Translations under genes and position numbers: made by a program
Notes under the pieces: model-generated
Told to the model about the DNA's origin: nothing
The model's database searches: none
The model's input: only the letters and a program-made list of their open reading frames with translations
Assembly (NCBI GenBank): GCA_910574195.1
Contig: CAJTBF010000001.1
Span: 310,001-374,000, forward strand
DNA: 64,000 bases
Source: Lachnospiraceae bacterium
GTDB taxonomy: Bacteria > Bacillota > Clostridia > Lachnospirales > Lachnospiraceae
Reading direction: 5' to 3'
Shown here: positions 21,160 to 26,398 of the stretch, one piece after another
How the letters are laid out: each line of letters opens with the position of its first letter
Numbering within the stretch: position 1 is the first letter of the stretch

Positions 21160-22209
21160 CTACAATTTCTTTTTCATTGTATCCTGTACATTGCCAAAAT
21201 TTTTCGCATATTTCGCCATAAATTCTTCTTTTCGCTCCGGCTTCAACTTGAAAAGGAACACAGACAACTCGTCCGCTCCCGGATTTTTCGGCAGCGCAAG
21301 CTGCTCTTCGGAATCTCTCTTGTATTCCCTGTTCAAAATTCCCTGCACGTAATCACAGTACAGATTACAGATATAAGCACTGATTACGGATGCCAGAGAA
21401 ACCGCCATAATCTTAAAGTCCGCTTTGACCGTCATAAATACATGGGTTGGGTCTATTGCAGAATCGCCGGAAGACAGTTCTCTTTTGAAATCTTCTATTT
21501 CCTGTTCTTTTCCGTCATAAAAATCGTCCACCACAATCATACTGCCGGGATTTCTCTTATAAACTTCCCTTAATACCTGCAGATGCGCCTCTTTTATCAC
21601 ATCATTTTTATTTTCTCCGTTTTCATAGCATCTTCTGTTATATTCTTCATTTGTAATAATTCTTGTAACAAAACGATCCGTACATAAAAGCGTCTTATCC
21701 TTGATTTCCTCCCAACAGTCGATACCGGTAACCTCTTTTCCAATCGAAGGAATCTTCCTGGAAATCCGCTTGGAATCATCCACTCCCATCCCGATAAATC
21801 TTCTTATTTCATTTTCCGCCCCAACGTATGCGGCCGTGACCACCAGGTTTTTAAAGGTTTCCCCATTGCCGGTCTCGTCACTCCCGATGGTCTGATGATG
21901 AAAATTCAATTCCGCAATGGACGGGGCATCTGCTTTTGATTCTTCCACAGGCTCCCTGTTGAGACGCATATCTTTTTCACGCAGCTCCTGGTAATCCCTC
22001 TCCCGGCCCTGCAAAAAGATTGTAACTTTTTTCCCTTCTTTATCTTTGTATACCCGAATATCACTTTTATCTTCAAACTGATAATACCGCTCCACATAGA
22101 TCTCTTTCTCTCCCGGCGGAGTTTTATAGTCTTTATACTTTTCTTCCAGACAGTCCAATATTTCGTCTTTCGCCGTCGGTACAAATGAAAAATCCGTTCT
22201 TTCTGTCAT
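21160..22209 (-). CDS. RNase HIII-like ribonuclease
   Basis: A 349-residue protein of the RNase HII/HIII group, which cuts RNA in RNA:DNA hybrids. The catalytic motif GSDETGNGE places D111 and E112. Further acids are D228/D229 in VVDDFYDG and the Asp of KADFKIMAVSLASVIS. The N-terminal part (IRVYKDKEGKKVTIFLQG) resembles the TBP-like substrate domain of RNase HIII. The ATG at 22209 has TGGAGG upstream. It is divergent enough to be a paralogue rather than the housekeeping enzyme. It is transcribed divergently from the HBD-AAA-protease gene, which carries another hybrid-binding domain. Confidence 0.85.
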   Translation of the reverse strand: MTERTDFSFVPTAKDEILDCLEEKYKDYKTPPGEKEIYVERYYQFEDKSDIRVYKDKEGKKVTIFLQGRERDYQELREKDMRLNREPVEESKADAPSIAELNFHHQTIGSDETGNGETFKNLVVTAAYVGAENEIRRFIGMGVDDSKRISRKIPSIGKEVTGIDCWEEIKDKTLLCTDRFVTRIITNEEYNRRCYENGENKNDVIKEAHLQVLREVYKRNPGSMIVVDDFYDGKEQEIEDFKRELSSGDSAIDPTHVFMTVKADFKIMAVSLASVISAYICNLYCDYVQGILNREYKRDSEEQLALPKNPGADELSVFLFKLKPERKEEFMAKYAKNFGNVQDTMKKKL

Positions 22210-22272
22210 TCGTTCTTTCCTCCAAATTCCGATTGTGCTTTCTCGTTCTTCGTGCCCGGTAAACATGAGATC

Positions 22273-22301
22273 ATTCTATCATCGGAGGTGTTGCACGTCA
22301 A
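22273..22301 (-). promoter_or_regulatory. Promoter of the RNase HIII-like gene
   Basis: TTGACG and TAGAAT with 17 bp between, ending 64 bp before the start codon at 22209. A near-consensus sigma-70 type promoter. Confidence 0.75.
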
Positions 22302-22337
22302 GGAAAGAAACACAGGAAAAACCATGTGATCGAGCAT

Positions 22338-22400
22338 GCCAAAACGGTGGGAACAAAGACGGATACCTTCCCCTTACCACCACATCGTTTTGGCTTGACA
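22338..22400 (+). promoter_or_regulatory. Inverted repeat abutting a TTGACA box before the HBD-AAA-protease gene
   Basis: GCCAAAACG at 22338 is repeated in inverse as CGTTTTGGC at 22386-22394, and TTGACA follows at once (22395-22400). No perfect -10 is seen at 17 bp. The inverted repeat next to the -35 box could be an operator or a transcribed hairpin. It lies in the shared divergent control region. Confidence 0.45.
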
Positions 22401-22486
22401 TAATTCATACGTTATGCAAAAATTAGGATATTACATACACCAAACTCCAAAGAAAATGACCAAAAAGGCCAGGAAAGGGACACTAC

Positions 22487-25400
22487 ATGAAGAAAAAAAT
22501 ATATGCCGTGAGAAGAGGACGTACTCCCGGCATTTACTATGTATGGAAAGAAACGGAACAACAGGTGAAGGGATTCAGTCATGCGGAATACCGCAGCTTT
22601 ACGTACATGACAGAACGGGAACACGAAGACGAAACGGTGGAGATGAGCCTTGCCTATGCGTTAAAACAGGCAAAAGCATACTTAGGCGCAATCCCGGAAA
22701 TACCGGAACAGGAAGAAGCACATACAGGCACAAATACCAAAGTGCCGGAGCAGACAGAAGTACATGCAGAGACAAGTACCGAAGCGCCGGAGCAGGAAGA
22801 AGCACATGCAGGCACAAGTACCGAAATACCGGAACAGGCGGAAGCACATACAGGGACAGGCACCGAAACGCCGGAGCAGGCAGAAGCATATATAGATGCA
22901 GACACGGAAGTATCGGAACAGGAAAGGGATCCTTACCATGCAATTGAAAAAGAGGTCATAAAAAGGGAGGCGGCATCAGACTCCCATCAAGAGATTCTGG
23001 AGCTGGCCCGTCTGAAACCGGATGCTTATGGGAATTCCCCCTGGGTTGCAGCTCTTTTAAAATGTGTGGCAGATAAGGACTCCTTTGTAAACTCACAGAC
23101 ATATACCGGCCGCTATTCCTGTACTTCACTTTATACCGCGCTGCTCTACCTGATATTGGATGACGATAAACTATTATATACCTATCAAAGACGTGTGCCG
23201 GGGTTTGATACAGACGACGACTGTATACAGAACATATGGCACGAATCGGAAGATTATACCCGGTTAAAAAAACGTTTCGACCGCTATAAAATGGAAGCCA
23301 TTGATTTACCGGAAGTTCTCTGTCGAAATCAGACAAAAGCAAAAGCAGACGGGCAGGCCGATGTCGTCCTTGGAACACCCTCCAAATCCTACCTGGCCAT
23401 GAAACGGTTTATCAAACAGGGCCAGCACACGGTTATGGGATTATATAGGGAACTTGTGAGAAATCCGGTGTACCGGCAGGAGCTTTTAAAAATATCCGGT
23501 CCTTTCCGAAATCCGGATTTGGAGACAAACCTTCCCTCAAAAACGACCGAAGAAACAACGGCCTCCATGCAGGATCTCATTATGCAGACTTCCGCCGTCG
23601 GTATCGCATTAAAAAGTAAAGTCATCGGACAAAATGACGTGATTGATAAATTGGAAGAGTCCTATTTCCATACGGAAAAAATAGCAAATGCCGGCAGGAA
23701 AAAGAAGGGGCCCAGAAGCGTATACCTGTTCGCAGGCCCGCCGGGTGTGGGAAAAACCTTTATTGCGGAAATTATGGCTCATACGCTGAACATTCCTTAC
23801 AAACGTTTTGATATGTCCGCCTATTCCCATCCCAGTTCCGCCGAGGAACTGATTGGTATTTCCAATTTCTGGAATAAGGCAAAACCCGGTGTATTAACAG
23901 ACTTTGTGCGGGAAAATCCCCGATGTATCCTGCTGTTTGACGAAATCGAAAAGGCATGCAGAGACGTCATTCTGCTCTTTCTCCAGATCCTGGATGAAGG
24001 CAAATGTTTTGACCGGTTCCATGATGAAAATATCGATTTTGGAAACACCATGATTATCCTCACCACGAATGCGGGAAAACAACTCTATCAGGATGCCGGA
24101 AATGAAAACCTGACACTGCTGCCGGATACCGTCATCCTGGACGCCTTAAAAAAGGACACGAATCCTCATTCCGACGTGCCCTTCTTCCCGCCTGAGATTG
24201 TTTCAAGAATGTCTTCCCATACCATTCTTATGTTCAATCATCTGCGGGCGGACGCCATTCTCAAAATTATAACTGCAGATTTGGACAAACAACTGAAACT
24301 GTCAAAAGAAACCTATGGATACGATATCGAAGACGGAAAAGAAACGCTGGCCGCCACCGCGCTGTACTCTATGGGCGGGAATCCGGATGCCAGAAACGCC
24401 ACCGTACTCGCCGGAAAACTCATTGACCGGGGACTCCATGCATTCCTGACTCTGACTGAGGAAAAACTGGGACTGGACTGGCGCAACCGCATCCGAAAAA
24501 TCACATGGGAACACGATTTTTCCGGAGCCTCCGACGAAATCCGGCAGTTCTATTTTGGAGAAAAAGATTGTGTCATCGCAATCTTCGGACAAACTGAAAA
24601 AATCAATGCAGGAATATTCACAAAAAACAATGTACAGATAAAGGCTACCACGAATCCGGAAGAATTTTTACAAATCATCCGAAAGGAACCGGTTATTCTG
24701 GCTGCAGTGGATTATGAATATGGCCGGAAGGAAAAGGAGCGCGGCTTAAGTATTACAGACAGCCTGACTGAGGGCAGCCGTATATTTTCCTATCTGAAAA
24801 AGGAATATGAAGAGACCATTCCGGTATATCTCTTATATGGAGATAATGGATATTCCTATTCCCAGAGAGAAAAAGATGAACTCTGCCGCTGCGGCGCGCA
24901 AGGGTTCCTCCAGCAGGAAAATATTCAGATCGAACTTCTGAAAGCCTATACGGATCTCTGCTGCCAGCAAACCATGGAAACCCTGTCCCTGCGGCATCAG
25001 AGACTTACCTATGACCTGAGAAATGAACTGGATGAAACGCAAAAATCCGGCAGAATCGTTTTCTGCAATTTCAAACTGGAATCTTCTGTTGAAGCGGAAG
25101 ATAAAGACCTTTTGCTGTCGGCAGATATGCGGCCGGATAAACACTGGGATGATATTTTCGTATCGGACGATGTAAAGAAAGAACTGGAATTCTTTATCGA
25201 TTTTCTCAAAAATCCAAAAGAATATATCCAAAAAGGCGTCCGGATTCCAAAAGGCGTATTGATGTACGGGCCTGCCGGGACCGGAAAAACCTCGCTCGCA
25301 AAAGTGGTCGCCGCAGAATCGGACGTAAGTTTCCTGGAAATCGGTGCGGACACACTGCGGACCAGAGGGGCCGACGAAGTCCGCCGTGTCTTCCGTACTG

Positions 25401-26398
25401 CCAGGAAGTATGCGCCGGCAGTACTGTTTCTGGATGAGGTGGACGCCATTGGCGCGGACCGGCAGCAGGCCGTCGGCAATATTGCCCTGAACACACTGTT
25501 GACAGAAATGGACGGATTCAAAAGGGTAGACGACAAACCGATCTTCATCATGGCGGCGACAAACTTAGTCCATCAGATCGATCCCGCGCTTCTGAGACGT
25601 TTTGACAGGACGTTCGAGATCCGGCTTCCGAACGACAAGGGACGAAAATGGATGCTGAAGCGGCTGCTTGGCATACACAGTACAATGTTTCAAATTTCGG
25701 ATAAAGAAATTGACAGTATTACCGACCGGTCGGCCGGAATGAATTTTGCTCAGATGGAAAACATCATCGAAACGGCATTGCGGGAAGCCATCCGTGCCGA
25801 TAAACCGGTAGACGATACCTTGTTAGATGAAACTTTTGAAAAATGTAATCTTGGAGAAGCAAGAGAAACCGGTTCGTTGGAAGTGATGAAACGCACCGCA
25901 TACCACGAGTCAGGTCACGCTTTGGTTCAACTGTTTCACAAAAAAATTCCGGATTATATGAGCGTTGTGGCAAGAAGCCAATTCGGGGGATATGTGCGGA
26001 GAAAAAGCACTCCCGATGAATACTTTACAAAAGAATCGCTGCTGGAGAGAATCCGGGAACTGCTCGGAGGGCGGGCCGCGGAAATCGTATGCGGATACGG
26101 TCTCACGTGCGGCGCCTCCAACGATCTGAAATGTGCGACGGAACTTGCGTCAGATATGGTGTGCAATTACGGCATGTACCAGGAAGAGATCGGACTTGCC
26201 GTCATTTCCGAAAAAGAACTGGCCTGTCATGAGAAGGCAAAGAATCTGGTGAATCAGATTTTATCCGAACAATTGCAGGAAGCAATGACCATTATCGGCC
26301 ATCACAAAGACGCTCTGGAACGGCTGGTCAACGCCGTAATGGACAGTGAGAAAAAATATCTCACGAAAAAAGAAATTGAAGCGGCTTATCGCGGGTAG
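22487..26398 (+). CDS. Hybrid-binding domain, ClpB-like AAA, receiver-like and FtsH-type AAA-M41 protease fusion
   Basis: A 1303-residue protein. Residues 4-45 match the RNase H1 N-terminal hybrid-binding domain (YAVRRGRTPGIYYVW, VKGF). Residues 72-141 are five 14-residue Glu/Thr-rich repeats. The first AAA module is ClpA/B-like (Walker A 417-424 GPPGVGKT, D485-E486). A receiver-like segment precedes a second, FtsH-like AAA (Walker A 928-935 GPAGTGKT, D983-E984, RRFDR finger). An M41 peptidase follows with H1140-E-S-G-H1144 and D1213 as zinc ligands, all intact. There is no membrane segment, unlike true FtsH. AAAGGG precedes the ATG. It is divergent from the RNase HIII-like gene. I know of no described system of this composition. 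Confidence 0.9.
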   Translation: MKKKIYAVRRGRTPGIYYVWKETEQQVKGFSHAEYRSFTYMTEREHEDETVEMSLAYALKQAKAYLGAIPEIPEQEEAHTGTNTKVPEQTEVHAETSTEAPEQEEAHAGTSTEIPEQAEAHTGTGTETPEQAEAYIDADTEVSEQERDPYHAIEKEVIKREAASDSHQEILELARLKPDAYGNSPWVAALLKCVADKDSFVNSQTYTGRYSCTSLYTALLYLILDDDKLLYTYQRRVPGFDTDDDCIQNIWHESEDYTRLKKRFDRYKMEAIDLPEVLCRNQTKAKADGQADVVLGTPSKSYLAMKRFIKQGQHTVMGLYRELVRNPVYRQELLKISGPFRNPDLETNLPSKTTEETTASMQDLIMQTSAVGIALKSKVIGQNDVIDKLEESYFHTEKIANAGRKKKGPRSVYLFAGPPGVGKTFIAEIMAHTLNIPYKRFDMSAYSHPSSAEELIGISNFWNKAKPGVLTDFVRENPRCILLFDEIEKACRDVILLFLQILDEGKCFDRFHDENIDFGNTMIILTTNAGKQLYQDAGNENLTLLPDTVILDALKKDTNPHSDVPFFPPEIVSRMSSHTILMFNHLRADAILKIITADLDKQLKLSKETYGYDIEDGKETLAATALYSMGGNPDARNATVLAGKLIDRGLHAFLTLTEEKLGLDWRNRIRKITWEHDFSGASDEIRQFYFGEKDCVIAIFGQTEKINAGIFTKNNVQIKATTNPEEFLQIIRKEPVILAAVDYEYGRKEKERGLSITDSLTEGSRIFSYLKKEYEETIPVYLLYGDNGYSYSQREKDELCRCGAQGFLQQENIQIELLKAYTDLCCQQTMETLSLRHQRLTYDLRNELDETQKSGRIVFCNFKLESSVEAEDKDLLLSADMRPDKHWDDIFVSDDVKKELEFFIDFLKNPKEYIQKGVRIPKGVLMYGPAGTGKTSLAKVVAAESDVSFLEIGADTLRTRGADEVRRVFRTARKYAPAVLFLDEVDAIGADRQQAVGNIALNTLLTEMDGFKRVDDKPIFIMAATNLVHQIDPALLRRFDRTFEIRLPNDKGRKWMLKRLLGIHSTMFQISDKEIDSITDRSAGMNFAQMENIIETALREAIRADKPVDDTLLDETFEKCNLGEARETGSLEVMKRTAYHESGHALVQLFHKKIPDYMSVVARSQFGGYVRRKSTPDEYFTKESLLERIRELLGGRAAEIVCGYGLTCGASNDLKCATELASDMVCNYGMYQEEIGLAVISEKELACHEKAKNLVNQILSEQLQEAMTIIGHHKDALERLVNAVMDSEKKYLTKKEIEAAYRG
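22700..22924 (+). repeat. Coding 42-bp tandem repeat
   Basis: Five units of 14 codons (pattern PEQxEAHxGTxTE) plus a partial sixth, forming an acidic linker between the hybrid-binding domain and the AAA part. The units differ by substitutions only, so the frame is kept. Copy number may vary between strains. Confidence 0.9.

Follow-up and report, generated by a model that had tools for sequence, protein, structure and literature searches.

Proteases and nucleases related to parts of the locus reported here have been described in several settings. FtsH is membrane-anchored, the N-domain of Hsp100 motors often chooses their substrates, and in IetAS the protease, IetS, is a separate protein. RNase HIII has a role at transcription-replication conflicts, and hybrid-binding domains (HBDs) may bind dsRNA besides RNA:DNA hybrids. 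For RNase LS proteins, excerpts of the published work describe fusions involving RNase H plus a viroplasmin domain and TBP-like domains, and suggest the targeting of RNA in DNA-RNA duplexes (PMC3710099). RNase HI controls RnlA in both directions, activating RnlA and also enabling its antitoxin, as excerpts of a second paper state (PMC5308261).

Here we describe a gene pair in a 64,000-nucleotide stretch of a Lachnospiraceae genome (the whole stretch is hereafter called the window; related loci and genomes are cited by our own L and G numbers). One gene encodes a 1303-aa protease with an N-terminal HBD and the other an RNase HIII-like nuclease. The protease has the domains listed in Table 1, its catalytic motifs are intact, and in its family it is recurrently linked to RNase H genes of different types, in one case as a fusion. 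Our best explanation, which we hold with moderate confidence, is that it is an accessory, soluble ATP-dependent protease that is aimed at RNA:DNA hybrids and works with an RNase H. Searches of open-access papers turned up no description of an HBD protease and an RNase H as one system.

Architecture of the protease and its nuclease neighbour

Both open reading frames (1303 and 368 aa) were found where the first-pass annotation, made from the sequence alone, had placed them, and its domain assignments were confirmed by profile searches. Specifically, the N-terminal segment that had been read as an RNase H1-type HBD matched PF01693 (2.5e-13; 50.5 bits against a cut-off of 21) and was similar to the solved HBDs 1qhk (1.1e-6) and human 3bsu (3.4e-5). 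It is the only HBD detected in this genome. The two AAA modules proposed as ClpB-like and FtsH-like were recovered by Pfam as AAA_2 (9.2e-34) and AAA (4.4e-45), respectively, and the claim of an M41 protease with all zinc ligands agrees with a Peptidase_M41 match (3.5e-27) in which the HExxH motif and D1213 are in place. No membrane helix was evident in the 1303-aa protein, whose maximum 19-residue mean hydropathy was 1.27 (at aa 481); the rule of thumb for a membrane helix is 1.6, a value that 3 of 18 family proteins reach or exceed (L029a, 1.64 at 202; L039, 1.60 at 624; L037, 1.67 at 177).

Table 1. Features of the gene pair, in window coordinates.
Feature	Position	Strand	Basis or remarks
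RNase HIII-like nuclease gene, 368-aa ORF	21160..22266	-	PF01351; catalytic-type residues D130, E131, D247, D283 (368-aa numbering)
Divergent intergenic region	22267..22486	.	Promoter-like sites at 22395-22423 (+) and 22301-22273 (-); imperfect inverted repeat at ~22335-22397
1303-aa protein: HBD - linker - helical domain - ClpB-like AAA+ - REC - FtsH-like AAA+ - M41	22487..26398	+	
RNase H1-type hybrid-binding domain (HBD, PF01693), aa 4-42	22496..22612	+	Pfam; solved HBDs 1qhk and 3bsu
42-bp tandem-repeat linker joining the HBD to the rest of the protein	22697..22924	+	
All-helical domain	22928..23584	+	Predicted structure, segment aa 148-366
ClpA/ClpB-type AAA+ module, aa 411-575, both Walker motifs intact	23717..24211	+	AAA_2 (Pfam)
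Atypical receiver (REC) domain, aa 693-830, with D742 at the acceptor position	24563..24976	+	
FtsH-type AAA+ module, aa 924-1046, pore-loop-1 region shortened	25256..25624	+	AAA (Pfam)
Peptidase M41 domain, aa 1135-1298: H1140-E1141-x-x-H1144 and D1213	25889..26380	+	Pfam

Three features of the protein had not been noted in the first-pass annotation, namely the REC domain, the helical domain at about aa 148-349 and the linker of 42-bp repeats. The repeat is present in 4.5 copies (22703-22892), and no comparable insert was found in the proteases of L008 or L010. The helical domain is ordered to about aa 349 in the predicted structure of its segment, and a structural search with it gave no match. 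The REC domain has the (beta-alpha)5 receiver fold. When its positions were judged from the predicted model, acceptor-position D742 was kept in 17 of 18 family rows. In these rows, strand 1 is not followed by a conserved acidic pair (2 of 13 HBD members have a Glu at 702), nor strand 5 by a conserved Lys. Lying between the two rings, the REC domain is a candidate switch. The HBD occupies the end of the protease at which an Hsp100 N-domain would sit.

The M41 HExxH motif and the distal Asp were kept in all 17 family rows that extend as far as the peptidase domain (the truncated L038 was excluded from this count, and the L040 contig stops before any M41 position). All 13 HBD members have the Walker motifs of the ClpB-like ring and an aromatic residue at what we take to be its pore-loop position. 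The pore-loop-1 region of the FtsH-like ring, for which we assumed the position seen in canonical loops, is 3-4 residues shorter in 9 of the 13 HBD members, the 1303-aa protein included, than in the other 4, and this ring may therefore not translocate. The simplest reading is that most of the pulling would be done by the ClpB-like ring.

With regard to the neighbour, the initial reading as a divergent RNase HIII-like nuclease was supported. Its sole Pfam match was PF01351 RNase_HII (5.5e-13), and its score against NCBIfam rnhC (49.3 bits) lies so far below the cut-off (161.2) that the protein must be regarded as divergent. Its true start is probably at 22209, which would give 349 aa, because on inspection of the sequence the ATG there follows a GGAGG motif. 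The four acidic residues listed in Table 1 are kept in 3/3 close relatives and align with D, E, D and E of L115, an RNase HIII that scores above the rnhC cut-off; the third of them aligned with L115 but not with RNase HII sequences. An hhalign comparison with L126, an RNase HIII with DUF3378, gave 98.8% probability over the catalytic part only, and DUF3378 (PF11858), the N-terminal TBP-like domain of RNase HIII, is present in L126 and had no Pfam match in our protein. Four of 397 family genomes matched an RNase HIII-like profile at 1e-12: this genome at full score, G084 and G397, each of which encodes an HBD-RNase HIII fusion, and G327, whose RNase HIII carries DUF3378. The closest relatives recovered for the partner nuclease thus include proteins that use an HBD too. 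In a PF01351 search of the 12 HBD genomes, the divergent HIII-like protein was found only in G000, G001 and G004.

Distribution, genomic context and linkage to RNase H

The distribution of the protease is rare and sporadic. With its N-domain as query, 4 of 61 relatives matched, with 3 of 12 genomes matching in the genus (own genome included). A core-profile search matched 8 of 397 family genomes, own included, of which three had near-full scores (G000, G024 and G334) and five were divergent or weak, as well as 5 of 398 phylum genomes, own included, four of them divergent or weak. A receiver-region profile matched 3 of 391 class genomes (own included, one weak), and a pattern scan of one genome per species across 84,980 species returned 10 loci, again counting our own. 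After removal of duplicates (L024 = L010, L025 = L008, L033 = L009), 13 HBD proteins in 12 genomes remained, own included, with two in L029. Seven loci of non-HBD relatives (L035-L040 and L119) were carried forward, and the weakest matches (G382, G515, G742 and G993) were dropped from the relative set. A tree of 16 proteins, outside which L037, L039, L040 and L119 stand, split the 13 HBD proteins from the 3 non-HBD ones (100/100) and placed the HBD proteins in three subclades. No relative was found in viral or phage collections.

The layout around the pair differs between genomes. Of the three genomes that have this pair, ours alone shows a divergent arrangement with one short intergenic region, and the control region that the two genes had been proposed to share is thus not conserved in L008 or L010. 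In L008, the protease and RNase HIII-like genes are 4.7 kb apart with five ORFs between them, and in L010 (source genome 74% complete, in 500 contigs) an ORF that on sequence inspection is tyrosine-recombinase-like separates the two. The promoter-like sites in the intergenic region come from a consensus scan only, which called 17 sites in the scanned 5.9 kb compared with 9.1 in shuffles. The LPG-synthase gene was found in 12/12 genus genomes, and at 6/6 other genus loci fetched (G004 to G007, G009 and G010) the LPG-synthase block was conserved with no pair beside it, at the spot that the pair occupies in our genome, the G007 locus covering just a short stretch on the pair's side of the block. 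In G004, the pair lies among other neighbours on a different contig from its LPG-synthase block, and in G001 it is likewise on a contig with different gene content. The gene pair has stayed together amid different flanks in three genomes of the same genus.

It is possible that such a pair does housekeeping work in the relief of R-loops or transcription-replication conflicts, with no role in immunity; the protease would strip stalled RNA polymerase or crosslinked protein while the RNase H degrades the RNA. Hybrid removal by RNases HII and HIII has been studied in B. subtilis, as excerpts of that work indicate (PMC10197577). Since PF00075 found no RNase HI match in G004 (93% complete), general duties could fall to the HIII-like enzyme in that genome. 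However, the very patchy presence and the differing flanks are unlike those of core repair genes, and our own genome already encodes a separate RNase HII and a canonical-looking RNase HI. We consider the housekeeping explanation unlikely.

The linkage to RNase H was assessed with RNase HI and HII/HIII profiles on 265 ORFs. An RNase H adjoined, lay close to or was fused with the protease in 8 of 12 HBD-protease genomes, compared with 0 of 7 loci of non-HBD relatives, two of which lie on short contigs, where the negative is weak (L038, 4.4 kb; L040, 3.8 kb); Fisher's test gave p = 0.013 with kinship ignored. The first-pass annotation had named two outcomes that would speak against it, namely a pair that does not co-occur in other genomes and an N-terminal segment that does not score as an HBD, and neither came true. 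The co-occurrence stands for the linkage as such but not for one fixed partner, as at least three sequence types were seen (HIII-like, HBD-HI and plain HI). The partner is RNase HIII-like in three genomes (this locus, L008 and L010), an HBD-RNase HI directly downstream in three (L009, L030 and L031), and a plain RNase HI in one (L029), where it overlaps the end of the protease gene. In another (L032), an RNase HI is fused in frame to the protease C-terminus (PF00075, 1.3e-39), although this fusion comes from one metagenome-assembled genome in which the stop codon was possibly lost by assembly error. The ORFs of protease and RNase HI overlap by 8-11 bp in L009, L029 and L031. No RNase H partner was detected in the readable flanks of L026, L027 and L034, and the L028 contig ends just after the M41 motifs, which leaves 11 assessable HBD loci.

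If random placement and one gene per kb are assumed, the chance that an RNase H lies no more than two genes from the protease, to either side, is ~3e-19 for 8/11 loci and ~1.5e-8 for 4/11. For six genes on either side, a span needed by the spacing in L008, which exceeds two genes, the values are 2e-15 and 1e-6. All three HIII-like pairs belong to a single genus and all HBD-HI pairs to a single subclade, and the relatedness of the pair-bearing genomes implies about four independent linkage events, not eight. The RNase HI types are only ~22-31% identical to one another over local stretches of 56-151 aa, a distance that argues for repeated, separate recruitment, and we regard separate recruitments of the RNase HI partners as likely. 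L009, L030 and L031 also carry a separate HBD-only ORF that shares 52-65% identity with the N-terminal ~220 residues of the proteases L029b and L032; we read it as a putative sensor without a motor.

Alternatively, the HBD could be a generic nucleic-acid or protein-interaction tag on an ordinary stress protease, and the linkage to RNase H could reflect co-transfer and not function. This would be consistent with the 3 of 11 assessable HBD loci that lack an RNase H neighbour and with the existence of non-HBD relatives, two of which have YbjN-like neighbours instead (clear in L036, weak in L119). It fits poorly with a linkage that takes in RNase H of different types, includes one in-frame fusion and was seen at 0 of 7 non-HBD loci, and we find it quite improbable.

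Proposed mechanism and role

The explanation we prefer, a hybrid-directed protease working with an RNase H, could proceed as follows. The N-terminal HBD, on its flexible repeat linker, would dock the particle onto an RNA:DNA hybrid, for which an R-loop, a replication primer, or a reverse-transcription or plasmid/phage intermediate are candidates. The ClpB-like ring would then grip and unfold a bound protein, such as RNA polymerase or a replication or mobile-element protein, and hand it via the FtsH-like ring to the peptidase domain. With the RNA strand taken away by the partner RNase H, protein and RNA would both be cleared and the protease freed. We infer hybrid binding, proteolysis, the order of events, the substrates and any role in defence, and the sensing of R-loops with degradation of bound proteins, as originally suggested for this pair, should be taken in the same conditional sense.

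The partner may also have another role, in that the protease could be regulated by the RNase H, as in RnlA-RnlB. In a conflict module of this kind, the protease would be a latent, possibly self-harming effector, the RNase H its activator and/or restrainer, and proteolysis would be set off by hybrids that form as phages or plasmids replicate. In E. coli, RnlA is reported to be stimulated by RNase HI, which also brings the RnlB antitoxin to it (PMC5308261). This precedent makes for a strong alternative in which the RNase H regulates the effector; the exchange of HI-type and HIII-type partners at our loci would parallel the control of RnlA by RNase HI, and the sporadic presence (3/12 genus genomes; three near-full-score matches in 397 family genomes, own included) would suit it. 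On the other hand, no HEPN domain is among the matches listed (25 of 42 Pfam families for the protease; PF01351 alone for the neighbour), the PADLOC matches are generic, and the effector would be a protease, not an RNase. On balance, the RnlA-like module seems to us rather doubtful.

Returning to hybrid-directed proteolysis, the sporadic distribution and the differing flanks favour a conflict role, and the benefit could lie either in defence against mobile DNA or in easing the transcription-replication conflicts of the cell itself. Defence had been raised in the first-pass annotation and found no direct support here: PADLOC gave only generic AAA matches for the protease, none for the RNase HIII-like protein and no known anti-phage system, and the 86 neighbour ORFs showed no consistent defence context. 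Joined to an RNase H, the HBD protease suggests an unrecognised bacterial way to clear or police hybrids. More tentatively, the loci might represent an undescribed class of nucleic-acid-directed proteolysis, in which the hybrid would tell a two-motor AAA+ protease where to act, an exchangeable RNase H would be its partner, and the whole would be a mobile conflict system that erases the protein and RNA of R-loops or of invader replication intermediates.

We know of no earlier bacterial case of ATP-dependent proteolysis directed by an RNA:DNA hybrid; if our reading is true, this would be the first, as far as we know. One small locus would then bring together the biology of R-loops, the regulation of RNase H and protein degradation, and the enzymatic clearing of hybrid-bound proteins by cells would become testable, with the L032 fusion and the partner swapping as a clear experimental entry point.

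Comparison with known systems

The locus resembles RnlA/RNase LS in that the published accounts describe a conflict protein with an HBD joined to RNase H (PMC3710099) and RNase HI as both partner and regulator (PMC5308261). It differs in the effector, which is a HEPN RNase there and an AAA+ M41 protease here. As in FtsH, an FtsH-type AAA+ module precedes an M41 domain that has HExxH and a distal Asp, and TIGR01241 matched aa 882-1289 with 296.7 bits. However, this score is far under the equivalog cut-off of 600, the 1303-aa protein has no evident membrane helix and a shortened pore-loop-1 region, and it adds a ClpB-like module, a REC domain and an HBD. Among the Hsp100 motors, the AAA_2 module aligns with the C-terminal AAA part of ClpA/ClpB models and has the aromatic residue at the presumed pore position, but here the peptidase is within the same chain. 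Clp_N is absent among the matches listed for the 1303-aa protein (25 of 42 Pfam families), and among its relatives only L038 gave a match, which was not significant (E 0.096).

The best PADLOC match was IetA, to the FtsH-like AAA module (9.1e-44). Only the AAA fold is common to the two, as IteA_antiphage reached 143.1 bits against a cut-off of 510, and the protease is fused as M41 in our protein. The neighbour aligns with the catalytic domain of RNase HIII (RnhC) and keeps the four acidic residues, but it falls short of the rnhC cut-off and gave no DUF3378 match in Pfam. To our knowledge, no described kind fits the system as a whole, which we regard as categorically new, although its parts are known and its function is one that we infer.

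Neighbourhood and variants of the HBD protease

The promoter-like -35 site of the window's gene for the HBD protease (the protein with an RNase H1-type hybrid-binding domain, HBD) is overlapped by an imperfect inverted repeat with 13 matches and 3 mismatches, which is a possible regulator site. Downstream, on the opposite strand, is encoded a 467-aa protein for which a Pfam search returned no significant match.

Loci of relatives (L-numbers) vary in architecture and gene content. L029 carries a tandem pair of HBD proteases that flank RNase HI and a PLD-like protein with DUF5710. The 1613-aa version in L009 has a duplicated FtsH-type AAA module (M41 plus three AAA+ modules in total). Of the three loci with a gene for HBD-RNase HI, two (L009 and L030) have next after it an ORF of 229 aa, whose product is calcineurin-like in L009 and similar in appearance in L030. 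Immediately upstream of the L031 protease, which has a receiver of its own, lies a small separate receiver-domain ORF (Response_reg, 1.8e-7). In G024, a family genome, pieces of a second protease-family member were detected (98-aa frame, 85 bits), together with an HBD match that contains an internal TGA. This is probably a decayed copy.

Features of the window, relatives' loci and G024
Location	Feature	Size (aa)
window:22335-22397	inverted repeat	
window:26641-28041	protein gene	467
L009:9436-10110	stand-alone HBD protein	~220
L030:9588-10253	stand-alone HBD protein	~220
L031:11318-11989	stand-alone HBD protein	~220
L009:10127-14968	HBD protease	1613
L009:15773-16462	calcineurin-like protein	229
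L030:8242-8931	similar protein	229
L029:675-10379	tandem protease pair	
L031:5811-6233	receiver ORF	
G024:C4:700-1211	protease pieces	
L036:5072-5988	two YbjN-like genes	
L119:1374-2315	two small genes, one weakly YbjN-like	
L037:1487-5563	helicase-type protein	1358
L124:8329-9273	HBD-RNase HII/HIII fusion	
L125:5955-7064	HBD-RNase HII/HIII fusion	

Possible partners of relatives without the HBD

Two small YbjN-like genes precede protease relatives that lack the HBD in L036 and L119 (the likeness is clear in L036 but weak, and in 1/2 genes, in L119), which suggests that the partner gene changes with the N-domain. Another such relative, in L037, adjoins a protein with helicase-type domains (AAA_11/AAA_12).

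The HBD outside the protease

The stand-alone HBD proteins share 52-65% identity with the N-terminus of the L029b (one of the tandem pair) and L032 (RNase HI-fused) proteases. Judged by sequence, they are sensor-only copies within the protease locus. Among relatives of the window's RNase HIII-like nuclease, single ORFs in L124 and L125 fuse an RNase HII/HIII catalytic domain to an HBD (Pfam profile matches in L124: PF01693, 1.1e-19; PF01351, 1.4e-18). RNase HIII normally carries a TBP-like domain at this position, and in both fusions the HBD occupies its place.
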